From NCBI GenBank assembly GCA_028101545.1, contig JAOHKZ010000003.1, forward strand, positions 1-64,000: 64,000 bases of DNA, given 5' to 3'. A model generated the notes under the pieces. That model was not told where the DNA came from, made no database searches, and saw only the letters and a program-made list of their open reading frames with translations. Below are positions 832-17,254 of the stretch, one piece after another. Source of the DNA: Opitutales bacterium (GTDB taxonomy: Bacteria > Verrucomicrobiota > Verrucomicrobiia > Opitutales > Seribacteraceae). A program made the translations under genes and the position numbers. The number at the start of each line of letters is the position of its first letter. Position 1 is the stretch's first letter.

Positions 832-1362
832 ATGGTTCAGCTTTCACAATTACAAAAGCCACATACTTCTTTCACTTGGGAAGATCTATTATCTTTGCTT
901 CGCGATGAACTCCAAGAGTATGGTGGTTTAGTTGGTTTACTTAATGCTCAGCAACAAAGCATTTTGAACCGAAATCCGCAAAGCCTTTTGGAGGTTAATC
1001 GTTCTGTGCAAAATCAAATAGAAGCTAGTAAAATTCTGCACAAAAGAAGAGAGGGGTTTGTTTCTTCACTTGCATCTAATTATGGACATCCAGAAGATGT
1101 TGCCTTATCTGAAATCTTAGAGCATTTTCCTAGTGTTACTCAACCCATGTTCCATAGTATAATAGAAGAAATTAATAACTTAATTACCCAGATTCGAAAA
1201 AGAATTGCTCAGAATGGTAGACTTCTTTCACGCTTAACAGATGTTACGGATCAATTATTGACTGTTTCCGACCCAGCTTCGCATTCTAAAACTTACAGTA
1301 AAACTGGAGATCTAAGTTCGCTTTCATTAAGCAAGCGAGCTTCCTTGAATGAATCAGCTTAA
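832..1362 (+). CDS. flgN: FlgN-like chaperone for FlgK/FlgL
   Basis: A 176-aa mostly helical protein without signal peptide or membrane segment. A heptad-like region around residues 25-90 (DELQEYGGLVGLLNAQQQ, then repeated Q/N/R) and a second helix around 110-140 resemble FlgN, the cytosolic chaperone that holds FlgK and FlgL for type III export. Position directly upstream of flgK and flgL is the strongest support, since primary sequence of FlgN is poorly conserved. The last ~25 residues are serine-rich and probably disordered. If the assignment is right, its clients here are far larger than usual, about 1,090 and 1,230 residues. Confidence 0.7.
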   Translation: MVQLSQLQKPHTSFTWEDLLSLLRDELQEYGGLVGLLNAQQQSILNRNPQSLLEVNRSVQNQIEASKILHKRREGFVSSLASNYGHPEDVALSEILEHFPSVTQPMFHSIIEEINNLITQIRKRIAQNGRLLSRLTDVTDQLLTVSDPASHSKTYSKTGDLSSLSLSKRASLNESA

Positions 1363-1386: not shown

Positions 1387-4300
1387 ATGAGTCTACTTGG
1401 AGGTATAGTCAAAACTACAGAAGCACTTCGTTATCATTCGAAAAGTGCTGAGATTGCTGGGCAAAACCTTGCTCATGTAAATGATGAAAGCTATGCTAGG
1501 CAACGTGTACTTACGCGAGAAGGGGTTATGTATAACTCTGCCGAAGGTTTACTTACATCTGGACTTGAAGTTGGTGGATTAGATCATGCTAGGAATGATC
1601 TTATTGATGCTCGAGTTATCACTGAAACGGGCGAAACCTCTTCTCTTAGTGCTCAAAAAGAAATTTTAGAATTATTACAGGGTACATTGGGTGAAAAAAT
1701 TACGCGCCAAGGAGTAAATGTTGGTTTAGATGATTTACATGAGAGTGACCTAGCACCGGGCAGTTTAACTCGTGCCATGAATGACTTTTTTAACGCTTTT
1801 CAAGAGTTGTCGGCATCGCCTCATGAGGAGACTATTAAACAGGAGTTATTACATAAGATTGAGACATTGACCAAGAGATTCAATGAGGCAGGTGAAAGTT
1901 TAGAAAATATTGAATCAGATCTATCGGAAACAATTCGCCGATCCGTTGAAGATGTTAACAGAATTTTATCCCAAATCCACCAAGTTAACACTCAGGTTCG
2001 CCGATTTGAATTACTTGATAAGGGAAAGGCTGTTTCTTATCGTGATCGTAGGCAAGCTTTACTTGAAGACCTTTCAACATACATTAATTTTAAGACAGAA
2101 GACGATATTTCAACAGCAACAGGCAAACCATCAGGCTTTGTAAATATTTTTGTAGATGGTGTGAATGGTGAAAAAGTAAACATTTTAGATTCTACTGGAG
2201 CAAAACCTATGACTAATGACTGGGGCCAGGAGTTCTCTTTGGCTTTACCATCTAATCCTGACGGTACAGCGGCAACAGTCAGGGCAAAAATCGATTCTAG
2301 CGGGCAACTTGGGCGATTTGAAGTTTTAGAAAGTGGATCTAAATACGATGATAGTAAAGGTCCCTTTATTGTTAGTTTATTACCACCTATTTCTCCTGTA
2401 ACAGCTTTACAGGACAATGCTTTTGCTGCTCCAATAGAAGAAGCTAATCAGGGTTTGTTGCAAGCCGCTCCAGAGCTTATGGCTAATCAACCAGTTGATA
2501 CAGGAAACGAACTTGCCAATACAACTGGAGGTGAGATCGGAACAAGTGTTACCTCTGATCCTGCACTTTCTTCTAGAATATTGGATGAAGTTTTTCATGA
2601 AGGAGGAGTTTATTATCAAGCATTGGCTAATACTCAAAAAGGAGATTTACTATCGGATGAGACTAAGTTTATGAAAATCTCCAACCCGCCCAATGGAGTT
2701 ATTTCCGAGACAAAGAGAACTTTTTCGGATTTAGAATTCATTGGAAAGGGAGAGCAGGTTTACTATGAAGGTAAATTATATCAAGCCACCACTGATGTAG
2801 GACCTTACATTACAGAATCTGGCATATTGGAACCAGAAACTCAGGTTTTAGGCAGCTCTAGAAATTACCTATCTGGAGAGGTTTTTAACTTCAACGATGT
2901 TTTTTATCAGGCAATCAATGATGTAGGGAAGGGAGCAGACCTTTCTGCTTTATCCGCTTCTGCCGGCACCGTGAATTCTTCAGGAATAGTAACTCTCGGT
3001 GCTACACTACCCCTTAAGTCAGAACTTGCAAATGTACAGTGGCCCAATGGTAATGATGTTACAAAAGGCCAAATTATTTCCTTCAAGGATCCAGACAGTA
3101 CATCAGATGGTGATTTTTATATCGCGCTCGACACTGTAAATGCTTCATCTCCTGAAATTCCATCCACTTCAACAAATTTTGCTCGTGTTGGTGTCTTTAT
3201 TGATGACACAATTGAAAATGTTTCGAATTTACCACAAACACAAACACTACTAGTTAATAATGTTGAAGTTACAGATGTTCAAATTGCATTTGAAGATGGT
3301 AAAGTTTATTATGATGATGCATCTCAATCCCATTTTTTAGTCAAAGCGTCCCCAAAGCCAATTACTGGAGACGCCAATGTTAATTCCTTTAATCCAAATG
3401 ATTCAAAATGGAGTAATCATTTTCATGTGTTTAAGCCCAATGCTAATTCTGGCTTAAATGTAAATTCAATCGCAAGGAAATCTTTTCCATCCGGTCTAAA
3501 TGTGACCAATGGATCGTTGCAAGAAGTGAAAATAGGTGTTGCTGAAGCAATTATTGAAAATGGAGAGGTGAAAAGTTTTAATATTCTTCAAACCGGTAAT
3601 GATCTACCATCTACAGATACGATTTTTGCAAATGGTGTTGAACTAGTTATTGATCGCGGTTCTATCCATGGTTACCAAACTGCCCGTCTTAATGATCTTG
3701 AAACATTTAGGAAAAGTTTGAACGGTCTCGTTTCAGAATTTGTCACACAAGTAAATACAATTTACAACCCAGAAGATGAACCAGGTGGGTATTTGTTTGG
3801 TTTTGAGGCTAATTTAACCAGACCAAAGTTGGGCCGGAATGTTATCATGGAAGAAGAGTTTGGTCTTTATGGTGTTGAGGGTAACGGAGAAATGAAAATG
3901 TACCCTAATGAAGTAAGCATGACTCTTGCGTATGCAGAGTCCGACACTTTCACCGTTACCAGCACAACTCCTGTTGTGCCTAAGGAACTAAAACAGCAGT
4001 TTGAAAACACGGGTTACATCATTCGAGATGATTCTGGAGCAGGTTTTGAGTTAGAAGACCCAAATTCCGGCTCTATTTATACTTTTTATGCGAGTGCAAG
4101 AAGAATGCAGAATGTCACCTTGGAGACTGACAGTAATTATCCAGGAGAAGATTTACTTTTAGGAACTGCAGATGATGGAAGGTCGATAATGTTAGCATAC
4201 CAAAATGTTCCTTTTAGGTTAGAGCAAGGAGATAAAGAATTTTTACTAGGCGACAATTTTTCTTTTGATGCCGTCTTAGAAAACAGTTGGAATTTAGCAT

Positions 4301-4662
4301 CATCTCTCATTGTTGATAAGAATCTTGATGTTGAAAGTATTAGAGCAAGTTTGGATGACGATCAGGGGGCTAATGAGTTGGCTCTGAAAATTAGTGAGTT
4401 GAGTAATGGTGAGTTTACAAAACAAATTGCATCGATAAATTCAGATTTAGGGAACACATTATCCGATATTGGAGATAACTTAGATCATCATACCACAATC
4501 GAAAACCTTTTGTTAGATCAAAGAAGAGCAGTTAGTTCTGTTTCGGTCGATGAGGAGGTTTCTGATTTAATGGTTTTCCAAAGGTCTTTCCAGGCGTCTT
4601 CACGAGTGCTTAATACGCTCGACAAAATGTTGGAATTAGTTGTAATGGGGTTAATTAAGTAA
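1387..4662 (+). CDS. flgK: Flagellar hook-associated protein 1 FlgK, giant form with inserted modules
   Basis: FlgK joins hook to filament. The N-terminus (LLGGIVKTTEALRYHSKSAE, then NLAHVNDESYARQRV) and the C-terminus (SVDEEVSDLMVFQRSFQAS, then VLNTLDKMLE) are the conserved rod-forming D0/D1 ends. At 1091 aa it is about twice the usual 450-600. The excess lies in the centre, about residues 270-750, built of short beta-rich units with a G-x-V-Y/F-Y-x-G/N-x-Y/F-Y-x-A pattern (near residues 405, 457, 497, 575, 636). Two further units match A-x-A-x-I-x(3)-G-x-V with a later G-x(2)-Y or G-N-D (near 303 and 719). I chose ATG 1387 rather than TTG 1381 because MSLLGGIVK fits the family start. The added part should project from the filament surface. 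Confidence 0.93.
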   Translation: MSLLGGIVKTTEALRYHSKSAEIAGQNLAHVNDESYARQRVLTREGVMYNSAEGLLTSGLEVGGLDHARNDLIDARVITETGETSSLSAQKEILELLQGTLGEKITRQGVNVGLDDLHESDLAPGSLTRAMNDFFNAFQELSASPHEETIKQELLHKIETLTKRFNEAGESLENIESDLSETIRRSVEDVNRILSQIHQVNTQVRRFELLDKGKAVSYRDRRQALLEDLSTYINFKTEDDISTATGKPSGFVNIFVDGVNGEKVNILDSTGAKPMTNDWGQEFSLALPSNPDGTAATVRAKIDSSGQLGRFEVLESGSKYDDSKGPFIVSLLPPISPVTALQDNAFAAPIEEANQGLLQAAPELMANQPVDTGNELANTTGGEIGTSVTSDPALSSRILDEVFHEGGVYYQALANTQKGDLLSDETKFMKISNPPNGVISETKRTFSDLEFIGKGEQVYYEGKLYQATTDVGPYITESGILEPETQVLGSSRNYLSGEVFNFNDVFYQAINDVGKGADLSALSASAGTVNSSGIVTLGATLPLKSELANVQWPNGNDVTKGQIISFKDPDSTSDGDFYIALDTVNASSPEIPSTSTNFARVGVFIDDTIENVSNLPQTQTLLVNNVEVTDVQIAFEDGKVYYDDASQSHFLVKASPKPITGDANVNSFNPNDSKWSNHFHVFKPNANSGLNVNSIARKSFPSGLNVTNGSLQEVKIGVAEAIIENGEVKSFNILQTGNDLPSTDTIFANGVELVIDRGSIHGYQTARLNDLETFRKSLNGLVSEFVTQVNTIYNPEDEPGGYLFGFEANLTRPKLGRNVIMEEEFGLYGVEGNGEMKMYPNEVSMTLAYAESDTFTVTSTTPVVPKELKQQFENTGYIIRDDSGAGFELEDPNSGSIYTFYASARRMQNVTLETDSNYPGEDLLLGTADDGRSIMLAYQNVPFRLEQGDKEFLLGDNFSFDAVLENSWNLASSLIVDKNLDVESIRASLDDDQGANELALKISELSNGEFTKQIASINSDLGNTLSDIGDNLDHHTTIENLLLDQRRAVSSVSVDEEVSDLMVFQRSFQASSRVLNTLDKMLELVVMGLIK

Positions 4663-4683
4663 TTATGGTTTCAAATTTCTAAA

Positions 4684-7600
4684 ATGCGTTTACCAAATCT
4701 CAGCGTTAGTGATTCTATTATTAGAACGATACAGGAGTTAAACAATGATCGTTTTAAATTAGATCAACAAATCTCTAGCGGTCAAAAAATTGCCTTGCCC
4801 GAAGATGATGGCATGAGAATGGGGCGTGTCATTGAACTTGAAACGCACAAAGGCCAGATTACACAATATCAAAGGAATGCCTCATACGCCAAAGAGTTTT
4901 TGGATGCAGGTTATTTAAACTTAGACCATTTAAGAGATTTAAATCAACGTGCTCAAGAAATAGCAAGATCTGCTGGTTCTAGTTTAAACGGACCTGCAAT
5001 GGAGACTTATGGCCATGAAATCGATCAACTGATTGAAGAGGCTTTAAATAGGGTCAATTCTACTCATCGAAAACAAGCTTTATTTGCTGGAACTAAGTTA
5101 AAACCGGAGTTCAACCACTCAGATATTCTCGTTGAGAAACGAGAAAAGAAGTCTTTTGCTTTCAATCAAGTAGGTACTATTGGTTCTGATGGCAAAAGAA
5201 GATTGGACGAGAATGAACAGATAATCCTTGCTGTTAATGGTAGGGAATATGTTTTTAAGGCTAAAGTTAATGGGTTGGATTTAGATGAAGCCAAACATAG
5301 GCTTAGAGATTTAATTAATAAAGATACTCAATATCTTTCAAATTCTCCCACATACGAAACTGATCAATATTCTGCATTTGTCAGAGGCGCTGTATCTGCA
5401 TCAACATTTAGGAATGATAATGCAAAACTTTCTGCTGAAATTACATCCCAAGGTGATATTGTAGTTTTGGGTTCACCAAGTGAAAAATTCTCTGCTGCTT
5501 CAACATTTGTAACTAAGTGGGATCCTAACAACTATTTTCCTAATCAATTACAAGCAAAGTTAGATTCTGAAACTTCTTCCCGTTACCCTGGTTCCTCATA
5601 TGATTCTTTATCTAAGGGTGAAAAACAACTCGTTCAAGATGCTGTTTACAATAGTGAATGGACTAGATCTCTCACTGTTACTTCAACTTCCATTGACAGC
5701 AATTCCAATCTTTCATTTGAAATTCCCAGTAATTGGAAAAGATTAACTATTTATAATCAGGGTGATGTCGTTGAAAGGGGTGGTAAACTTTGGGAGTCAA
5801 TTGGTGCAGAAAATGTTAATCACGATCCAAGTGCTTCGGGAGTAGATTATTGGCGGGAAATTGGCTCTAGTTATAGTAAAGAAAGGGAGGACTGGGATCT
5901 TGAGGTAACAGGTAAATCCAACCGTCTTTATTTTACTTCCCCTGATGGGACACTATTTCCCGATAGGACTTCCGCAGTCAATTATTCTAGAAATATTTTA
6001 ATTTCCACTAAAATTAAAGATTATCAACTTAGTTCCAACCCTGCACAAGCCCTAGCTACTGATTTAGAAAATGCGGTAAAACAAGTTTCTATACCAGTTA
6101 ATCAATTTTCGGTTTCTGGTTCTGAAAATGAAGGTGCTGTATTTTTTGATCCAGAAACTCTTAAATATTCCCTTAATTCTGCTCCTAGCGATGGTTCAAT
6201 AATTTCTGGCTCGTTTATTAAAGATAATGGTCAAGTATTCAGAGCTAATCAAAAAGTTTCTGCTAATGATGTTGTCTTGCACGAAGGCAGGTACTTCTTA
6301 GTCCAAAACCCTAATTCTGTTGACGCACAAACTTTACCCCATCTAGTTGAAAAATTGCCTCCATCAGGAGATGTAATTTCTTACAATGGTCCAATTGTTA
6401 AGTCCACTGATTCTTCAACACCTTCACTTAATTCAGGTCAATATTTTGAGGTTGTCAATGCAGACCCGACACTACCTTCGCAATTTTATTTAGCGAGTTC
6501 ACAAATTTCTCTTTCCGCAGGTGATCTAACTGGTTTGAGTTCTGCGACACCAGTTGTTCCATCAGCTTTAAGTAAAGTGAGCTATGATCCTTCACTTTCT
6601 AATGTATCCATTAAGGCAGGTCAGCATCTTTTTGACTCTACCACTGGTAAGTATTTTTTAATCAAATCGAATTCGTCTTTCTCGCTTTCTGACACTACCA
6701 GTAATGTTTTCAATGGGGTAGAGAAGGTAGAAGTTATGGAAAGAACTGATGGGAATGTATTTTTGCTAGGATCGACTTTACCAGTCGAGGGCAAAGAAAA
6801 ACTCTTCTACGAGGACCGTGAATTAATTGCTAGTGCAGGAGATTACATCGCATATCAACCCCCTGCAATTAACATTAATGATACTTTTGTTCTACCACCA
6901 GTTGAGCATTATGTTGCACTTCAAAATATCAACAAATATGCCTCATGGGTTGAAGGTAATCCCTCACTTTCTGGAGAGTTTGCCATGAAATCTGGTAAAT
7001 TATACTTTGCGAACACAGCTATCATTGGGGCAGATAATACAGAAGCGAATTTTTCATTAAACTGGAGCGAAGCAACAACTTGGCAAGAAGGTTTTGCTGC
7101 CAAAACTGGTGATTCTGTTTTTAAAAATGGAATTTACTACACTTCCAACACGGATTTAACTCCAAGTGATAATTCAGAACTTAATTTCTCATCTAATTGG
7201 ACAGCATCCAATTTTCCTGATTATAATATTTCAGAGGGAAGTTTTTACAGTAAAGTTGGAAGTTCTTTGACTTCACCTGGACCTACAGTAGCAAATCAGG
7301 GTGAAAATTGGAGTCCTAACTTAACCTACGATTTTGGACAAATCGTTTACCATGAAGGTGCTTATTTTCAATGCCAGGTGAATAGTTTTGATAACACTTC
7401 CGACGCACAGAGCATATCAGGAGTTCCTTCGATAATAACTCCTAATGACAAATTTATATATAACGAAACAAACCAAAAGGTAGCCAACGATAAATGGTTG
7501 CAAATAGATAAACCATTGGATCATGTTTTGAAATTTTCTGTTGATAATGCGGAAAAACCACTAGTTTCAATTCAACCCTCTGGAGTTTCTGGAAATGATG

Positions 7601-8385
7601 CAAGAGCTGAAGCAATTCTCGATTCCGATGGAGAAGTTGTTGGTTTAAAAGTTATTGATGCTGGTAGATATTTTTTCGGAGTTTCAAGTGCCGGTTTTGT
7701 ACCTCCAGATTTCGAAAAGGCAAAAGTAATTCTTGCTAATGGTCAGGAAATGGAAGCTGATATTTTGTGGGAACAAAACCCTGTGGACCCAGGTGCTTAT
7801 CGAGTCGCGGGATTCGATATTTCAGTTGGTGTGCCTTTGAGTTCTGTTAAGCAATCTGCTGTTACAGGAGACTCATACTCTTTTGCAACAGGGAACAAAA
7901 CATTTTTAGACCATCGTGATAAAGATGGTAATGTCCTTAATGTAACTTACACTGGTAGTGAATCTAACTCTAGTTATTACATTGGTAGTGAAAGTAAAAT
8001 TTCCGCGTTTTTACAAGCTGGAAATAATGGAACATCTGAACTAGGTGATGTAGTTAACGATTTGGTCAGTTTGCGAGATTCACTTCTTAATTCTACACCA
8101 TCTCATTATTCTCAAGAAATTGAAGAGAATGAAAGGAAACTTTTGCTTCAGGAGGATAAACTTATTGATAAAATGGGCGAATTGTCTGCTCGAATGTCAA
8201 GAATGGAAACAGTAAAAGCGCACGATGAAGATTATTTCATGCAACTAGACCAGAGAATCTCTAGTGATGTCGACATTGATTTATCAGAGGCTATAATGAG
8301 ACTTACTCAACTATCTACTGCCTATCAGGCTTCTTTACAAGTTGGTTCCCAACTACTGAACACTTCTCTACTTAACTACCTATAA
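4684..8385 (+). CDS. flgL: Flagellar hook-associated protein 3 FlgL, giant form with inserted modules
   Basis: FlgL is the second hook-filament junction protein and a flagellin homologue of usually 300-500 aa; this one is 1233 aa. The flagellin-like ends are clear: residues 1-130 (LNNDRFKLDQQISSGQKI, then NRVNSTHRKQALFAGTK) and the last ~110 (EAIMRLTQLSTAYQASLQVG). Between them lie many small Trp/Tyr/Gly modules, for example YNQGDVVERGGKLWES near residue 357, WVEG...MKSGKLYFANT near 754, WQEG...DSVFKNGIYYTS near 800 and YDFGQIVYHEGAYFQC near 882. These look like repeated chitin-binding-type (CBM5/12-like) units; that resemblance is inference. ATG start 21 bp after flgK. Probable client of the FlgN-like protein. 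Confidence 0.92.
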   Translation: MRLPNLSVSDSIIRTIQELNNDRFKLDQQISSGQKIALPEDDGMRMGRVIELETHKGQITQYQRNASYAKEFLDAGYLNLDHLRDLNQRAQEIARSAGSSLNGPAMETYGHEIDQLIEEALNRVNSTHRKQALFAGTKLKPEFNHSDILVEKREKKSFAFNQVGTIGSDGKRRLDENEQIILAVNGREYVFKAKVNGLDLDEAKHRLRDLINKDTQYLSNSPTYETDQYSAFVRGAVSASTFRNDNAKLSAEITSQGDIVVLGSPSEKFSAASTFVTKWDPNNYFPNQLQAKLDSETSSRYPGSSYDSLSKGEKQLVQDAVYNSEWTRSLTVTSTSIDSNSNLSFEIPSNWKRLTIYNQGDVVERGGKLWESIGAENVNHDPSASGVDYWREIGSSYSKEREDWDLEVTGKSNRLYFTSPDGTLFPDRTSAVNYSRNILISTKIKDYQLSSNPAQALATDLENAVKQVSIPVNQFSVSGSENEGAVFFDPETLKYSLNSAPSDGSIISGSFIKDNGQVFRANQKVSANDVVLHEGRYFLVQNPNSVDAQTLPHLVEKLPPSGDVISYNGPIVKSTDSSTPSLNSGQYFEVVNADPTLPSQFYLASSQISLSAGDLTGLSSATPVVPSALSKVSYDPSLSNVSIKAGQHLFDSTTGKYFLIKSNSSFSLSDTTSNVFNGVEKVEVMERTDGNVFLLGSTLPVEGKEKLFYEDRELIASAGDYIAYQPPAININDTFVLPPVEHYVALQNINKYASWVEGNPSLSGEFAMKSGKLYFANTAIIGADNTEANFSLNWSEATTWQEGFAAKTGDSVFKNGIYYTSNTDLTPSDNSELNFSSNWTASNFPDYNISEGSFYSKVGSSLTSPGPTVANQGENWSPNLTYDFGQIVYHEGAYFQCQVNSFDNTSDAQSISGVPSIITPNDKFIYNETNQKVANDKWLQIDKPLDHVLKFSVDNAEKPLVSIQPSGVSGNDARAEAILDSDGEVVGLKVIDAGRYFFGVSSAGFVPPDFEKAKVILANGQEMEADILWEQNPVDPGAYRVAGFDISVGVPLSSVKQSAVTGDSYSFATGNKTFLDHRDKDGNVLNVTYTGSESNSSYYIGSESKISAFLQAGNNGTSELGDVVNDLVSLRDSLLNSTPSHYSQEIEENERKLLLQEDKLIDKMGELSARMSRMETVKAHDEDYFMQLDQRISSDVDIDLSEAIMRLTQLSTAYQASLQVGSQLLNTSLLNYL

Positions 8386-8401: not shown

Positions 8402-8857
8402 ATGAAATTAGAACTAGGTGGTGGAACTGAAAGCCAAAATATAAATCAGTCTGTCTCGAGAAATAAAGTTTCTCTACCTGATGGACTATTTGGTTTTGCT
8501 GAAATCAGATCAATGGAATTAGTTTTTGATCATGAAGAACTTCCATTTATGTGGTTGCGTGAAGATAAGCAAGACGGGTTAGCATTTGTTGTAATTGAAC
8601 CTGGTGGGGTAATACCTAATTATTCTGTCGAAATTGCGGATGCTGATGTTCAATTACTAGGTATAACTGGACCGGAAGATACTATGATCTTGAATATTGT
8701 GACTCTTCCTCCTGACCAAAGCGGGAAAATTTCTTTAAACCTTGTTGGACCTATAATAGTGAACAGAAAAGATTTAGTTGGGAAACAATGTATCATTAAT
8801 AATCATGAAGAATTTTCTGCTCGTCATATTTTAGATGTGAGTGGAGATACTCTCTAA
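8402..8857 (+). CDS. fliW: Flagellar assembly factor FliW
   Basis: FliW binds flagellin and also binds and antagonises CsrA, coupling filament assembly to flagellin translation. The 151-aa protein has the family pattern: LPDGLFGFAEIRSMELV near the N-terminus, a PFMWLREDKQDGLAFVVIEP block around residue 50, and a conserved MILNIVTLPPDQ then NLVGPIIVN core around 100-120. It is followed after 23 bp by csrA, the classic FliW-CsrA pairing. The stop codon sits inside a hairpin whose other arm covers the csrA leader, so translation of fliW could affect csrA initiation. The flagellin gene, the usual target of this switch, is not in the window. Confidence 0.93.
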   Translation: MKLELGGGTESQNINQSVSRNKVSLPDGLFGFAEIRSMELVFDHEELPFMWLREDKQDGLAFVVIEPGGVIPNYSVEIADADVQLLGITGPEDTMILNIVTLPPDQSGKISLNLVGPIIVNRKDLVGKQCIINNHEEFSARHILDVSGDTL

Positions 8858-8880: not shown

Positions 8881-9183
8881 ATGCTTATTTTATCTAGAAA
8901 AGTCGATCAAGGAATAAGAATTGGGGATGAGATTGAAATATCAATTACTAAGATAGAAGGAGATTCTGTCAAAATTGGTATTTCGGCTCCTCGTTCTATT
9001 TCTATATTAAGGCGTGAAATTCTTGAAGAAATGCAGGATTCTAATATCGCGGCTGCTGTCTCATCTGTGCCTAGTAAGACTAGTTTAAAAAGCACTCTTG
9101 CTGCTGGTTCTGCAAAAAAACTAATTGCTCAAATAAGAGCTAAAAAAGCCGCGTCACAGAAAGGTGAATTACCCCAAAGCTAG
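8881..9183 (+). CDS. csrA: Carbon storage regulator / translational repressor CsrA, C-terminally extended
   Basis: CsrA dimers bind GGA motifs in mRNA leaders and repress or activate translation, including that of flagellin. The first ~55 residues are canonical: [20 protein letters not shown], then [11 protein letters not shown] and RREILEEMQ, including the conserved RNA-binding Arg at the RREI position. Typical CsrA has 60-75 residues; this one has 100. The extra ~40 residues are Ser/Ala/Lys-rich with a basic patch ([13 protein letters not shown]), probably disordered or RNA-contacting. It lies 23 bp after fliW, whose product should antagonise it. The start is fixed by the conserved N-terminus. 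Confidence 0.95.
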
Positions 9184-11616: not shown

Positions 11617-12303
11617 ATGAAGGACTTAGGTAATCGAGTAATAGCTTATGCTGCTGCACTTTCAATTCAGGCATTAAGTGTTGAACTTCTTAAAAGAGAA
11701 AAAGTGACAAGAAGGTTAAAGGTCAGACTCTTGAATGATGGTTTAGTTGAAGTTGGTGGCCCAGGCTTATGTTTTAAGGAAACGAAATTGCTTAAGGCAG
11801 TTGCATCTGGCTTTGCTGTACCACAGCTTTTACCCTTGGTTTTAAATTTTAAAAATAGTCTAGAATCAATTTTTATCTTACTTCAAATAAGGAAGTTTTT
11901 CTCAAACAAGGAAGTTAATTTTGATAAAGTTTCTTTGGGATTAATTGCAGGTTTGGCGGGAACCGCAGCTTTTGCAAATCATAATCTTCATTACATTGAA
12001 TTATTAAAGGAGCATAAAGATGAAGTAGTTTTATTTAATGTGGCAAATTCAGGTATTGAGATTTGGTTTTATTTTTCTTCGGACGATTTTTGGACAGTTG
12101 ATTCAGGTGAATTTTCATTGAATCCTACATCTGTTTTTACTTTTAAAGATCTTTCTGTTGCACACGGTGCTATTATTGGTTGGTTTGATCATTTGGCGGG
12201 CCCAGCTATTGGAGATGTTCAAATTTCAGGCAACCTCCCTTTATTGGATAAGGTTGGATATATATCCAGGAAAGTTCAGCAACAAGTGCCCTCTATGTTA
12301 TGA
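11617..12303 (+). CDS. Unknown protein, possible SCP2-like lipid-binding domain
   Basis: I do not recognise this 228-aa protein with certainty. The C-terminal third (from about residue 165, VFTFKDLSVAHGAIIGWFDH, then GDVQISGNLPLLDKVGYIS) resembles the end of sterol-carrier-protein-2 domains, which hold lipids in a hydrophobic tunnel: a TFKD strand, a helix, and a final G-x-L-P-L-L-D-K helix. The N-terminal two thirds contain hydrophobic stretches (around 60-85 and 105-120) without a clear signal peptide. It is sandwiched 2 bp after the glycosyltransferase and overlaps the aminotransferase by 4 bp (ATGA), implying joint function, perhaps presenting a lipid to the transferase. That role is speculation. 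Confidence 0.45.
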   Translation: MKDLGNRVIAYAAALSIQALSVELLKREKVTRRLKVRLLNDGLVEVGGPGLCFKETKLLKAVASGFAVPQLLPLVLNFKNSLESIFILLQIRKFFSNKEVNFDKVSLGLIAGLAGTAAFANHNLHYIELLKEHKDEVVLFNVANSGIEIWFYFSSDDFWTVDSGEFSLNPTSVFTFKDLSVAHGAIIGWFDHLAGPAIGDVQISGNLPLLDKVGYISRKVQQQVPSML

Positions 12304-13535
12304 GTTTAAAACACGATAAGTCCGATAATTTATTTGCTAGAGCTATGAATGTCATCCCCGGTGGCATTTATGGGCATGTGGCACCAGTTGCTGGTCTTCC
12401 CATGCATTTACCAAAGTACATTCAGGAAGCATCAGGTTGTAGATTCATTGATGTTGATGGAAACGAGTGGATCGATTTTATGTGTGGATTTGGTGCTATT
12501 TTGCACGGATATTCAAACCCGGAGATCGACAATTTTGCTAATGTGCAACGCAACAAAGGATCTGTTTTTAATCAACCCAGTCCTGTAATGGTTGAATTGG
12601 CGGAATCATTGACAAGCAAAATTGATTTTGCCGATTGGGCTGTTTTTGCGAAGAACGGTTCCGATTTGACAACATGGGCAATTCGTGTTGCTAGAGAGTA
12701 CACGCAAAGGCCATTTGTCGTGAAAGCAAAAGGTGCTTACCACGGGGTAGATGCTTGGTGTGATCCTGGTTTTGGAGGAAGGATCGATGATGATAGGTCT
12801 AAGATATTAGAGTTCCCCTGGAATGATTTGGATTATCTTAAATCGCTATTAAAAACTTATTCAAAACAAGTATCAGCAATTATTTTAACTCCTTATCATC
12901 ATGCAGCATTTGCTCCATCCATCATGCCGGCAGAAGGTTTTTGGTCTGAGATTGAGAAGGAATGTCAGAAAAATGGTATTATTTTAATCCTTGATGATGT
13001 AAGGGTAGGAGGGAGGTTGAATGATGGTGGTTCGCACAGGTACTTCAATTTTACTCCAGATTTATCTATCTATTCAAAGGCTTTGGGAAATGGATACACA
13101 ATTTCTGCATGTACGGGAAAAAAGTTTTTGATGAATGCTTCGAAAGAAGTTTTTTTGACTGGGAGTTGTTGGAATGATGCTGTAGCAATGTCAGCTGCTT
13201 TAAAGTCCCTTGAAATCTCCCATAGGGATCAAGTGGCCGAATCTATTAAAAATAAGGGTGAATATTTCTGCAAAGGCTTGTGTGCAAGAGCTAAGAAATA
13301 TAATCTGCCTTTATTTATGACAGGACCATCTTCAATGCCTTACCCATGGTTTGAAGGCGATGAAAATTTATTCCGAATTCAAAAATTTTGTAAAATTGCT
13401 GCCGGTAAAGGGTTATATTTTCACCCACACCATAATTGGTTCATTTCGAATTCGCATAGCATAGTGGATCTTGACCTTGCACTAGATCTAGCCGACGAAG
13501 CTATGTGTGAACTAATACAAATTGAGAATTCTTAA
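12300..13535 (+). CDS. Class III aminotransferase (glutamate-1-semialdehyde aminomutase-like)
   Basis: A 411-aa PLP-dependent fold-type I aminotransferase of the GSA-aminomutase branch. Visible features are an N-terminal IPGGIYGHVAPV substrate loop, the GSDLTTWAIRVARE cofactor-phosphate region near residue 120, the GAYHGVDAW segment, an LDDVRVGG motif where the PLP-binding Asp sits, and the Schiff-base Lys in YSKALGNGYTIS. It is unlikely to be haem-pathway HemL, because the context is a glycosyltransferase cassette and several GSA-specific stretches differ. Similar enzymes occur in nonulosonic-acid and surface-sugar clusters. Its start overlaps the preceding gene by ATGA, and its 3' end overlaps the convergent MAF gene by 4 bp. 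Confidence 0.75.
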   Translation: MSLKHDKSDNLFARAMNVIPGGIYGHVAPVAGLPMHLPKYIQEASGCRFIDVDGNEWIDFMCGFGAILHGYSNPEIDNFANVQRNKGSVFNQPSPVMVELAESLTSKIDFADWAVFAKNGSDLTTWAIRVAREYTQRPFVVKAKGAYHGVDAWCDPGFGGRIDDDRSKILEFPWNDLDYLKSLLKTYSKQVSAIILTPYHHAAFAPSIMPAEGFWSEIEKECQKNGIILILDDVRVGGRLNDGGSHRYFNFTPDLSIYSKALGNGYTISACTGKKFLMNASKEVFLTGSCWNDAVAMSAALKSLEISHRDQVAESIKNKGEYFCKGLCARAKKYNLPLFMTGPSSMPYPWFEGDENLFRIQKFCKIAAGKGLYFHPHHNWFISNSHSIVDLDLALDLADEAMCELIQIENS

Positions 13536-13545
13536 TTAAATTTTT
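13520..13545. terminator. Stop-spanning hairpin at the convergent aminotransferase/MAF junction
   Basis: Bases 13520-13526 (AATTGAG) pair with 13531-13537 (CTTAATT) over 7 bp including one G-T wobble, leaving an AATT loop. On the plus strand a TTTTT tract follows at 13541-13545. The hairpin covers both stop codons of the overlapping convergent genes. It is weak and AT-rich, but its position fits a terminator. Confidence 0.4.
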
Positions 13546-15076
13546 CAGTAAAGAATCGCGATAGAAAATCATCCTCAGGATTGCATTCCAATATCGCATC
13601 TTCTAACTTCCAAATAAGGGTTTCAATTTCCTTTGAAAATCCTTTCAACTCTAGAGGCGTCGGCTCTTTCTCTGGAGAAATTATTGGCATTACTGAAAAA
13701 GCAAAATCACCCAATAATTTCGCCTTATCATGGTCCGCTAATGTTTCTCTTAAAAAATTTAGAAGAATTGCATTGTTCTCATTTTCTTGTTTGGGGAAAG
13801 TGTCCCAGATAGAGTCGCAGATTGTCGTTAATTGACAAAGTAATTGATTAAGTCCGAGCCCTCGAAGCGATTTCCGTTTATTTAAGAGAACTAATTCTTC
13901 TGAGTTAAATGGTTTTATAATTTGATTTAATACATTTTTTAATTCTTCAACTTGATCAGGATGAACAAGGGTTGCGCCTTCAAGTTTTGCCCCACGATCA
14001 TTTAAGTTAATTATTGTTTTATTTTCTGAAATTTTACGGCAAAAAGCCGATGTTTCCTGCCAGTCGGATAAAAAAGGTGTTGTTACTGTATCACTAAAAT
14101 TTCCTGGTATTTTATGATAATGAGAAGCAAAAATTTGAACATGAGCTCGATTAGTATTTTTTGCATACCTTTCTTGACCAGCACCTCCTCCAGATAAATC
14201 CATTCCCAATGTTAAAATTGCTGAAGGGTTTAAGAAATTTGCAACCATCAGAGCAGTCAGCCCCGCGTTATTAATCGCAATTACATCTGTTTTGGAAATA
14301 CCTTTTTCGGTTAACCAATCTTCGGTAATAATCCGCCCAGATAAATAGCAACAATTTTTACCCCATTTTTTGGACCAGCTTTCATGTGATTGACTTGATA
14401 AAACAGCAATCCCGGGGGAGTAGCCTTCTTCGCTACATGATTCAAAAGTTTTTTGTGGATCAATACTTACCACAAAATCAGGATTTAAATTGGCACTTCT
14501 TAAAGCCGTTAAACTACTGTCGCTTGCCACAATTATTGGCTTTGGGATACCACTTTTCAAAAAGGGGAGAGTGACATCAAGAGAAGGGCCAGCGCCGACT
14601 ACTACGGCTAAAGATCCTTGTGCAAGACCATTCCACTCAGTTGGTATTCGTTTTGTTAGATACCCTGCCAAATTAACGAATACTTGCCTTTGGCGAAGGT
14701 AACCAGTTTCAGAGCGAGTCCTTCTTGCTCGCATGGTGGAATCAATTTCAGAAATAGTGAGATCAAGTATTTTATTATATTCGCTTGTTGATTCATCAGA
14801 GATTGACTTTGATACCTTAACAGTTGGAGGCGAATCATAATCAAGAAGCATAAAGTTCTCTAATTTTTCTTTTATGACTGAAGCACTTTCTTTTCTGTCA
14901 ATAAAAGTTAGTTCTTTAGGCAAAGGACTGATCGTTTCTTTTTTTGAAGAGAATAATAAAATTCCCATTGAGAATTCTTTTGATAATTCAGAAATTGTCA
15001 GTCGATCGATAGAACCTAATACAATTACAGATTTGGCTCCATCGGAAACTGATTCTGAGAGCCAATCATCAACCAT
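13532..15076 (-). CDS. Motility accessory factor (MAF / DUF115) protein, flagellin glycosylation
   Basis: A 514-aa member of the DUF115 (MptE-like, PF01973) family, whose motility accessory factor branch is required for adding nonulosonic acids to flagellin. The DUF115 core runs from about residue 125 to 330: NLAGYLTKRIPTEW, AVVVGAGPSLDVTLPFL, VASDSSLTALRSANLNPDFVVSIDP and GMDLSGGGAG. No signal peptide or membrane segment is seen, so it acts in the cytosol. It lies back to back with pseB-pseI, which make the matching sugar type, and near the flagellar operon; this supports a flagellin transferase role. ATG 15076 is the only standard start, though the frame is open upstream to 15128. Confidence 0.8.
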   Translation of the reverse strand: MVDDWLSESVSDGAKSVIVLGSIDRLTISELSKEFSMGILLFSSKKETISPLPKELTFIDRKESASVIKEKLENFMLLDYDSPPTVKVSKSISDESTSEYNKILDLTISEIDSTMRARRTRSETGYLRQRQVFVNLAGYLTKRIPTEWNGLAQGSLAVVVGAGPSLDVTLPFLKSGIPKPIIVASDSSLTALRSANLNPDFVVSIDPQKTFESCSEEGYSPGIAVLSSQSHESWSKKWGKNCCYLSGRIITEDWLTEKGISKTDVIAINNAGLTALMVANFLNPSAILTLGMDLSGGGAGQERYAKNTNRAHVQIFASHYHKIPGNFSDTVTTPFLSDWQETSAFCRKISENKTIINLNDRGAKLEGATLVHPDQVEELKNVLNQIIKPFNSEELVLLNKRKSLRGLGLNQLLCQLTTICDSIWDTFPKQENENNAILLNFLRETLADHDKAKLLGDFAFSVMPIISPEKEPTPLELKGFSKEIETLIWKLEDAILECNPEDDFLSRFFTEKFN

Positions 15077-15191
15077 AGAAGGATTGATTAAAGGTAATGC
15101 TAAAATATTCAGAATTGCTGAAATTCATTAAATTTAACTTGCATCTTTCGAATCGACTAAATCTCATAAAGATGTTTAATATGATTATTCT

Positions 15192-16190
15192 ATGCTTAAC
15201 GACAAATCAATTCTTGTAACTGGTGGTACCGGTTCTTTTGGGCAAAAATTTGTTAAGACCGTTTTAGAGAAATACCGTCCGCGGAGAGTTATTGTTTATT
15301 CTCGCGATGAATGGAAGCAGTCGGAGATGCAAAAAGATAAGGATTTCACCCAAGGTCAGGTCAGATTTTTTCTTGGGGATGTTCGAGATAAAGATAGGCT
15401 TTGTTTAGCAATGAGAGGGGTCGATTATGTTGTTCATGCCGCTGCATTAAAGCAAGTTCCAGCTGCCGAATATAATCCCCATGAATTTATTAAGACCAAT
15501 GTGGATGGTGCCACAAATGTGGTAGAGGCATCTCTTCATGCCGGTGTCAAAAAAGTTGTAGCTTTAAGCACAGACAAAGCCGTTAACCCTGTGAATTTAT
15601 ACGGAGCAACAAAATTATGTTCAGACAAAGTCTTTGTTGCAGCAAATAGTTACACAGGAGATGCTGGTACTACCTTTTCTGTTGTTCGCTATGGAAATGT
15701 TGTGGGTAGCCGAGGTAGTGTCGCACCTCTCTTTGCGAATCAAAGAGAATCTGGTACCTTAACAATTACAAACCCAGAAATGACTCGTTTTTTAATTACA
15801 CTTGAAGAGGGTGTTCAATTTGTTTTACAGAGTCTTGAGAACATGGTCGGTGGAGAACTTTTTGTCCCGAAAATCCCTGCTTGTTCAGTTGGAGATATTG
15901 CTAGCATAATTGGTCCAGATTGTCAGTGGAACACAATTGGCTTGAGACCGGGAGAGAAAATGCATGAAATTCTTATTCCAGAGGATGAGTCTAGGAATGT
16001 TTTAGAATTTGATAATCATTATCTTATTCAACCAATTCAATCTTTTTGGGGAAACAAGATTGGAATTTTGGGAGGAGTTTCTTGTTCTGATGGGTTTAAA
16101 TTTGCTAGTAATTGTAATTGTGAAAATTTAAGTAGTGACGATTTAAGAAAATTACTAGTTGATTTTATCCCTCAATCTCAGCCTCATTAA
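15192..16190 (+). CDS. pseB: UDP-N-acetylglucosamine 4,6-dehydratase (inverting), PseB
   Basis: First enzyme of CMP-pseudaminic acid synthesis, converting UDP-GlcNAc to a 4-keto-6-deoxy-L-sugar nucleotide. The 332-aa protein has the NAD(P) Rossmann motif VTGGTGSFGQKFV at residues 8-20, the AALKQVPAAEYNP segment with the PseB-type catalytic Lys near residue 97, and the extended-SDR YGATK motif (Y-x3-K). LRPGEKMHEILIP near the C-terminus also matches PseB/FlaA1. It starts with ATG 115 bp from the divergent MAF gene and is followed after 20 bp by pseI. PseC, PseH, PseG and PseF are not in the window. Confidence 0.92.
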   Translation: MLNDKSILVTGGTGSFGQKFVKTVLEKYRPRRVIVYSRDEWKQSEMQKDKDFTQGQVRFFLGDVRDKDRLCLAMRGVDYVVHAAALKQVPAAEYNPHEFIKTNVDGATNVVEASLHAGVKKVVALSTDKAVNPVNLYGATKLCSDKVFVAANSYTGDAGTTFSVVRYGNVVGSRGSVAPLFANQRESGTLTITNPEMTRFLITLEEGVQFVLQSLENMVGGELFVPKIPACSVGDIASIIGPDCQWNTIGLRPGEKMHEILIPEDESRNVLEFDNHYLIQPIQSFWGNKIGILGGVSCSDGFKFASNCNCENLSSDDLRKLLVDFIPQSQPH

Positions 16191-16210
16191 TTTTCGTTCC
16201 ATCTACAGCG

Positions 16211-17254
16211 ATGGATATTTTAAGTAAAATTTCTGATCTTAAGAATCCTCCTCTTATCGTTGCCGAATTGTCTGGTAATCATGGTGGTGATTTGAGTAAA
16301 GCTTTTCGCCTTGTTGAGTCTGCAATTGAATCGGGTGCAGATGCAATAAAGCTTCAAACTTATAAACCTGATACTATAACGGTAGAAGGAAGAGACGACC
16401 GGTTCCTCTTGAATTCCGGGTTATGGAAAGGCCGTTATTTATACGACTTGTATAAAGAAGCCATGACTCCCTGGGAATGGCATAAGCCCCTTGCTGATAG
16501 GGCCGAAGAATTAGGATCTTTTTTATTTAGTTCTCCATTTGACGAATCTGCCGTTCAATTTTTGGAATCTACATTAGACCCCATTATCCATAAAATTGCA
16601 TCTTTTGAGTTAAATCATTTTCCTCTATTGGAAAAAATTGGTGAGACAAAGAAAGTGGTCTTTGCCAGCGTGGGAGTATCTAACATTGAAGAAATTGATC
16701 AAGCCCTTGAGACTTTGAAAGCATCTGGGTGTCCACAAGTTGTTCTTTTGCATTGTGTAAGTGAGTATCCGGCCGATGCACGAGATTTTAATTTAGCGTC
16801 TATGATCGAATTGAAAAAACGATTTGGAGATTTTGTTGGTCTGTCTGATCATTCGCCTGGTCATACTATTGCTGTTGCATCTACTGCTCTTGGTGCACGG
16901 GTAATTGAGAAACATTTTACTTTGGATCGGAATGATAATTCAATCGACGGGGCTTTTTCGATGCTCCCTAATGAATTTAAGAATTTAGTTGATGAAGTTA
17001 AAACAGCACATATCGCGATGGGGGATTCTCAATTTTATCATTTAAAAAAAGAATTAAAGGGTGCTAATTTTAAACGTTCGATTCTTGTTTCATCATCCAT
17101 AAAAAAAGGCGAAATACTTTCATGTCATAATATAAGAGTTGCACGACCTGGGGATGGGTTATGTCCGAGTTTATGGAGGCATGCTCTTGGTTGTGTAGCT
17201 AAGAAAGATATGGAGGTGGGGTATCCAATATCCCTAAACGATTTTACTGAATAA
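16211..17254 (+). CDS. pseI: Pseudaminic acid synthase PseI (NeuB family)
   Basis: Condenses phosphoenolpyruvate with a 6-deoxy-diacetamido-hexose to give a nonulosonic acid. The TIM-barrel part shows LIVAELSGNHGGDLSKAF at the start, ESGADAIKLQTYKPDTIT near residue 40, an FSSPFDESAVQFLE stretch, and GLSDHSPGHT then VIEKHFTLDR toward its end. The C-terminal antifreeze-like SAF domain begins about residue 285 (FKRSILVSSSIKKGE). The AELS-x-NH and KLQTY-x-PDT motifs resemble PseI more than sialic acid synthase NeuB, and the neighbour pseB agrees. Legionaminic-acid synthase remains possible. The stop codon lies within a hairpin followed by a T-run. Confidence 0.85.
   Translation: MDILSKISDLKNPPLIVAELSGNHGGDLSKAFRLVESAIESGADAIKLQTYKPDTITVEGRDDRFLLNSGLWKGRYLYDLYKEAMTPWEWHKPLADRAEELGSFLFSSPFDESAVQFLESTLDPIIHKIASFELNHFPLLEKIGETKKVVFASVGVSNIEEIDQALETLKASGCPQVVLLHCVSEYPADARDFNLASMIELKKRFGDFVGLSDHSPGHTIAVASTALGARVIEKHFTLDRNDNSIDGAFSMLPNEFKNLVDEVKTAHIAMGDSQFYHLKKELKGANFKRSILVSSSIKKGEILSCHNIRVARPGDGLCPSLWRHALGCVAKKDMEVGYPISLNDFTE

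Follow-up and report, generated by a model that had tools for sequence, protein, structure and literature searches.

FlgK and FlgL, the hook-associated proteins at the junction between hook and filament, are usually taken as small, fixed adaptors, and the variable middle of flagellin and its relatives faces outward. In Salmonella, FlgK and FlgL occur at 11:11 in 11-subunit layers (accessible part of PMC12221982). Large inserts are already known from flagellin, as the accessible parts of PMC6248924 and PMC7018530 describe. The giant flagellins of Bermanella and Oleibacter carry a big insert replacing D2/D3, with in-place domain duplication, and in flagellinolysin a known domain type, a protease, is inserted in an exposed flagellar region, the variable region of flagellin (accessible parts of PMC6248924 and PMC7643111). 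Tandem modules resembling the carbohydrate-binding module (CBM) families 5 and 12 are found in extracellular machines, namely phage tail fibres (8fqc, 9rkv, 9b45) and contractile-injection baseplates (7b5h). Here we describe the flgK and flgL genes on a 64,000-nucleotide stretch of DNA (the window; contig JAOHKZ010000003.1, positions 1 to 64,000) of an Opitutales bacterium. As judged from sequence profiles and structure models, the middle of both products is enlarged by several copies of a module with a predicted CBM5/12 fold, some of them in-place duplicates, and by sequence the same module is also present in the filament cap protein FliD and in some giant flagellins. The Bermanella/Oleibacter proteins differ in that flagellin only is affected, through its DE regions (PMC6248924, as far as its accessible part goes), whereas here junction proteins and cap are involved too and the modules are of the CBM5/12 type; in flagellinolysin, flagellin has gained one catalytic domain, in contrast to a module repeated over several hook-associated proteins (PMC7643111, likewise in part). 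In contrast to tail fibres and baseplates, the protein that carries the modules here is a subunit of the flagellar junction. In the open-library literature, by title and abstract start, we found no paper on CBM modules in FlgK, FlgL, FliD or flagellin. PMC12713411 does not mention FlgK and FlgL, and PMC13317340 was discarded as a report of CBM5, which there, as far as its accessible text shows, is the start of a strain name.

The initial annotation had described both proteins as greatly enlarged with intact ends, and Pfam and TIGR matches bear this out. flgK (HAP1; 1387..4662, + strand) encodes 1091 aa from the ATG at 1387, or 1093 aa from a TTG at 1381, and the product matches FlgK_D1 (4.8e-31) and Flg_bbr_C (8.8e-9), both above cut-off; TIGR02492 is narrowly below its cut-off (168.8 vs 170.75 bits). 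flgL (HAP3; 4684..8385, + strand) encodes 1233 aa with Flagellin_N above cut-off (1.8e-9), a weak Flagellin_C below it (0.0078) and the FlgL model TIGR02550 at 137 bits (cut-off 127.2). Judged by these matches, the two are junction proteins and not giant flagellins of the ~1000-aa filament-building kind. The source genome assembly measures 2.2 Mb, with a completeness of 57%. An assembly artefact or frameshift as the source of the enlargement was ruled out, since the reading frames are uninterrupted and many independent assemblies show this architecture.

Modules were compared across 27 long FlgL rows (the window counted, three cut by contig ends) and 26 long FlgK rows, taken from loci of relatives that match the window FlgL. 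At least five units had been claimed in each protein; the count holds, with 5 related small beta-modules in FlgK and 7 in FlgL. When 12 slices (7 FlgL, 5 FlgK) were compared profile against profile with hhalign, 33/66 pairs were linked at probability >= 50, forming one group of 12, while module-control pairs gave 0/132. An iterated profile seeded on FlgL aa 349-393 recruited 145 domains (64 in FlgK, 81 in FlgL), against zero when each protein was shuffled five times. Three module models (E <= 0.01) found at least 2 modules in each of the 26 long FlgK and 27 long FlgL rows, and none in 5 short FlgK, 10 short FlgL or four partial pieces; the long rows helped to build the module model, and the true controls are the short proteins, decoys and other protein families. 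Pfam CBM_5_12 (E <= 0.01) matched 25/27 FlgL rows (best 1.1e-11) and 3/26 FlgK rows. The window FlgL is slightly under the cut-off (E 1.5e-5, 25.4 vs 26.2 bits), and the window FlgK has no match to this Pfam model. The motif as first written did less well: as a strict regular expression it occurs 0 times in the FlgK middle (shuffle mean 0.09) and twice in FlgL, a count that 35/2000 shuffles reach. With no excess in FlgK and a mild one in FlgL, the motif as written is weak, and the profiles are decisive.

All twelve modules lie on the + strand, and hhalign supports each of them. FlgK module 1 (aa 396-434, 2572..2688) has a beta hairpin at 402-412 and an aromatic residue 410 in 26/26 rows; modules 2 (aa 446-486, 2722..2844) and 3 (aa 487-530, 2845..2976) are hairpins also found by the module hidden Markov model (HMM), at 454-470 and 490-512. 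Module 4 (aa 545-605, 3019..3201) was in addition placed by fold, and module 5 (aa 608-665, 3208..3381; hairpins 618-631 and 640-652) is the weakest member, its sole link at probability >= 50 being to FlgL 630-672. FlgL module 1 (aa 346-396, 5719..5871) is present in all 27 rows with conserved W351, aromatic 370, W390 and NxN[H/R]xP. Module 2 (aa 522-562, 6247..6369), a hairpin, has an aromatic residue 538 in 27/27 rows, module 3 (aa 630-672, 6571..6699) has a residue at its anchor in 14/27 rows, and module 4 lies at aa 705-748 (6796..6927). Modules 5 (aa 757-799, 6952..7080) and 6 (aa 799-845, 7078..7218; module HMM 807-824) form a tandem pair linked at probability 98. Module 7 (aa 870-944, 7291..7515), again in all 27 rows, contains the Pfam CBM_5_12 match (aa 875-900). 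The array, originally given as 2563-7410, thus runs slightly further, to ~7515. Two pairs, each 39% identical, are probable in-place duplications: the FlgL tandem pair and FlgK 396-434/487-530.

The fold of the modules was examined in AlphaFold2 full-length models built with 9-10 sequences only. In FlgK 397-720 the predicted local distance difference test (pLDDT) lies mainly at 65-88, and the modules show beta hairpins. Placement by fold covered two modules, both matching solved CBM12 or chitin-binding domains. FlgK 547-603 aligns by VIA-align with CBM12 of chitin oligosaccharide deacetylases (Z 5.4, root-mean-square deviation (rmsd) 1.9, 48 residues; 4nz1, 9jeo, 3wx7), and also with chitinase domains (4hmc, 2d49) and phage tail-fibre domains, while FlgL 872-944 aligns with 3wx7 (Z 6.7, rmsd 1.6, 49 residues), Serratia ChiB and others. 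The top Foldseek PDB match for FlgK is the phage Milano receptor-binding-complex chain 8fqc_Q1 (E 9.9e-4), and some of the viral structural matches bear the names CBM 5/12 or ChiC_BD. Taking the modest Z values and the profile evidence together, the modules likely have a CBM5/12-like fold. The likeness to CBM5/CBM12 (PF02839; ChiA1 1ed7, ChiC 2d49, COD 3wx7) lies in the small beta-fold, by structure comparison, and in the core Tyr and Trp of FlgL modules 1 and 7; the FlgK/FlgL modules differ in not being attached to enzymes, and those of FlgK lack the first Trp.

In CjCBM5 the conserved Tyr and Trp (Y265, W299) are core residues, and an adjacent exposed pair, Y282-W283, sits in the chitin-binding surface (PMC8449059, accessible part). 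The core aromatics are kept here: W351, 357 (Tyr/Phe), 370 (aromatic) and W390 in FlgL module 1, and W876, Y882 and Y894 in module 7, are present in 27/27 rows, so that conservation among relatives, which the initial annotation had made a test, was found. FlgK module 1 shows this pattern in part, with Phe at the final position 428 in 26/26 rows. The remark that units are often preceded by Trp-x-x-G stands for the Trp before FlgL modules 1 and 7 (27/27); there is no fixed G, and the element is absent from the FlgK modules. We take the CBM5 chitin-binding pair to be placed directly after the second strand. Single aromatics do occur (e.g. FlgL 902, 24/27 rows), and near the site that, judged by eye, presumably corresponds to the ligand Trp of the ChiA1 CBM12, FlgL module 1 has its NxN[H/R]xP. 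In the seven residues that follow the second strand, a pair of neighbouring aromatics was found in 0/266 instances of the 12 modules, a count made without a positive control. Chitin binding through the usual CBM5 pair was therefore rejected, and binding of chitin or cellulose by the modules is not supported by their sequences. Given that the conserved Tyr/Trp positions match the CBM5/12 core and that the exposed pair is absent, the pattern is evidence of fold and not of binding; of the proposed likeness to chitin-binding units, profile and predicted fold stand, and chitin binding lacks support.

In a second explanation the modules are structural: they would pack on each other and on neighbouring subunits, stiffening and thickening the junction, the cap and any part of the filament made of giant flagellin, with no outside ligand. 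This is nearly as likely as the contact surface weighed below, and we hold it as a serious, still tentative, alternative. FlgL modules 1 and 7, near both ends of the module region, are fixed in 27/27 rows, the modules between them varying, and module 1 has invariant N377, N379 and P382 followed by invariant R401-E402-D403-W404, as packing surfaces would show; the absence of the chitin ligand pair agrees with it as well. The FlgL tandem pair (757-845), however, is found in 7/27 rows, and such gain and loss better suits an expendable decoration than a load-bearing part.

To follow the trait among relatives, 57 genomes were searched with the window FlgL, which matched 40 of them; the named relatives are Opitutia/Opitutales assemblies, nearly all metagenome-assembled genomes (MAGs). 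Long FlgL (930-1500 aa) and long FlgK (1022-1728 aa) come from one Opitutales family. Outside it FlgL has 271-378 aa (the shortest being truncated at a contig end) or, in genome G046, 513 aa, and FlgK 466-503 aa (n=5). By sequence, modules in FlgK and FlgL mark this one family, and the length survey called for at the outset returned enlargement as a trait of it. G005, labelled as the same genus, has a 513-aa FlgL like that of G046, probably a contaminant, and a second, different flgK-flgL pair with a 1729-aa FlgK in one MAG (L042, G008:C268) may be contamination too. In a class draw of 286 genomes TIGR02550 matched in 75, with FlgL among the matches listed mostly ~300-350 aa and a few long frames, e.g. 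987 and 1019 aa; setting these few aside, FlgL modules as a class-wide trait were not seen in the draw and the idea was dropped. PF02839 was found in 30/286 genomes (30 loci), where BLAST gave no flagellar ends in loci reaching ~1500 bases to each side and covering large frames in part; some very large proteins there weakly match FlgL module regions by BLAST. Proteins of ~3900-4100 aa with CBM_5_12 recur in several families of the class (L159, L163-L165, L168, L171, L173, L180, L182). The wide length differences within the family are what would be expected if the inserts were a rapidly evolving shield that keeps off phages or predators binding to the flagellum, their exact fold being irrelevant, and variable domains of flagellin are known antigens and phage targets (PMC7018530, accessible part). 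We regard a shield as improbable: the module core is strictly conserved, and ~11 copies of FlgK would poorly cover a filament of many ordinary flagellins, none of which has a detected module.

The modules had been placed in a ring at the filament base only, and this proved too narrow. When 320 frames from flagellar loci and the whole window were scanned with the module models (E <= 0.05), all matching frames (19 with model m3, 18 with m5) could be assigned, by position or BLAST, to FlgK, FlgL, FliD or flagellin. Pfam CBM_5_12 (cut-off 26.2) was exceeded by the FliD of G016 (43.1 bits) and by a 567-aa flagellin of G053, which belongs to another Opitutales family, f18 (45.4 bits). G053 thus has the module in flagellin (L115:3855-5555, Pfam) and in FliD (L116:866-3790, module model), and its FlgL is short (378 aa) without module matches. 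A match at E <= 0.01 was present in 13/62 flagellin- or FliD-like frames and absent from the ordinary flagellins (~290-340 aa) scanned. The own genome has a giant FliD in two frames (L079:5369-10644, at the end of contig C12), adjoining fliS-like and fliT-like genes. Its long frame (1583 aa open) is 52.6% identical over 1613 columns to the 1951-aa FliD of G004; no module match reached threshold, and similar motifs are visible by eye. Giant flagellins of ~700-1035 aa occur in many relatives, several close to fliD (L092:3482-6400, L104:11495-14524, L101:1450-4554 and others). The genomes that hold them also hold many ordinary flagellin genes, Flagellin_N matching as many as 33 times in a single genome. 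Giant flagellins give thick filaments elsewhere (PMC6248924, accessible part), in line with a structural role. Against that role, the rod/hook-type proteins of the family found with PF06429 are not enlarged, nearly all those listed having <400 aa, with the exception of a 1266-aa frame in G004.

The module is not confined to flagellar proteins. Another match to CBM_5_12 in the own genome is a COX4-like protein with a C-terminal CBM5/12-like module (L073:1159-1872, contig C15), and 16/20 CBM_5_12 loci without flagellar hits picked from relatives encode, by reading, a cytochrome oxidase subunit IV-like protein. All six COX4-like proteins scanned match both COX4_pro and CBM_5_12 (E <= 0.01), 2 of them above the CBM cut-off. 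The loci in relatives are L136-L140, L142, L143 and L145-L153, and several of the COX4-like proteins have an H-T/S...W pattern like that of the chitin deacetylase CBM12. In the open literature no paper was found pairing the two terms searched for COX4 and a CBM5/12-like module. Because the module there is part of a membrane respiratory protein and not of an organelle exposed to particles, its presence alone does not mean adhesion. Its occurrence in phage tail-fibre, contractile-injection baseplate and cap proteins and on COX4 again suits a structural role.

In the window, flgK and flgL are preceded by flgN (832..1362, + strand; PF05130, 1.1e-16), encoding their predicted export chaperone, and followed by fliW (8402..8857, + strand; PF02623, 2.5e-30) and csrA (8881..9183, + strand; PF02599, 1.4e-21). 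The order flgN-flgK-flgL-fliW-csrA is the standard late-flagellar arrangement, and a rod-binding protein gene is also there. FlgL aa 151-342 (5134-5709) is a predicted domain like a phage tail-sheath domain (8kee, Z 8.0, rmsd 1.9, 85 residues; also 9cba, Z 6.9). Further on, at 12300-17254, lie pseudaminic-acid genes of the flagellin glycosylation type, encoding PseB, PseI, a Maf/MptE-like protein and an aminotransferase. With PseB (483.3 bits, cut-off 407.75), PseI (403.8 bits, cut-off 340.25) and the Maf-type gene (MptE-like PF01973, 74.2 bits) located ~5 to 9 kb downstream of flgL, the modules could be imagined to bind the flagellum's own sugars, the junction, the cap and giant flagellin then holding on to glycans of adjacent flagellins. 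Proximity within the window is the whole basis of this idea, and we know of no CBM5/12 that binds nonulosonic acids, which counts against it; we consider it the most improbable of the explanations discussed.

We favour the reading that the CBM5/12-fold modules in the FlgK and FlgL middles form an outward, multivalent, low-affinity contact surface, for which glycans or gels of marine particles would be the likeliest partners, and give it a probability of about 45%. We prefer it since the modules increase in number and differ among relatives, whereas the core and two of the modules are constant. With D0 and D1 packed in the core, the inserts would project outward, and 11 x 5 FlgK and 11 x 7 FlgL modules could then make a dense collar at the junction; further modules would sit at the cap and, should a giant flagellin be built in, on a stretch of the filament. 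The last step is the least certain: that the arrays would be a surface of many weak contacts, likeliest for marine-particle glycans or gels and not for chitin through the CBM5 pair. Attachment to particles is possible. Several results weigh against this reading. The aromatic pair of CBM5 is missing; the full-length models are weak (mean pLDDT 46.5 and 51.1), and module Z values of 4 to 7 are under the safe level of the tool (8); most FliD and giant flagellin frames score under the module threshold; and this module, which is conserved also on the family's cytochrome oxidase subunit IV and occurs in phage tail-fibre proteins, is not evidently an adhesin in either of them. The bolder version, in which junction, cap and giant flagellin were rebuilt with one lectin-like module into a multivalent sugar-gripping organ, possibly for particles and for the cell's own pseudaminic-acid-coated filament, appears unlikely.

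For other outer proteins the respiratory example is a caution that a CBM5/12 match need not mean carbohydrate binding. The modules are small, expressible domains for studying flagellar attachment to marine particles. In this family FlgK and FlgL have undergone a family-wide lengthening of more than twofold with a repeated module, and, that module being common to junction, cap and some giant flagellins, the junction is likely a functional surface.

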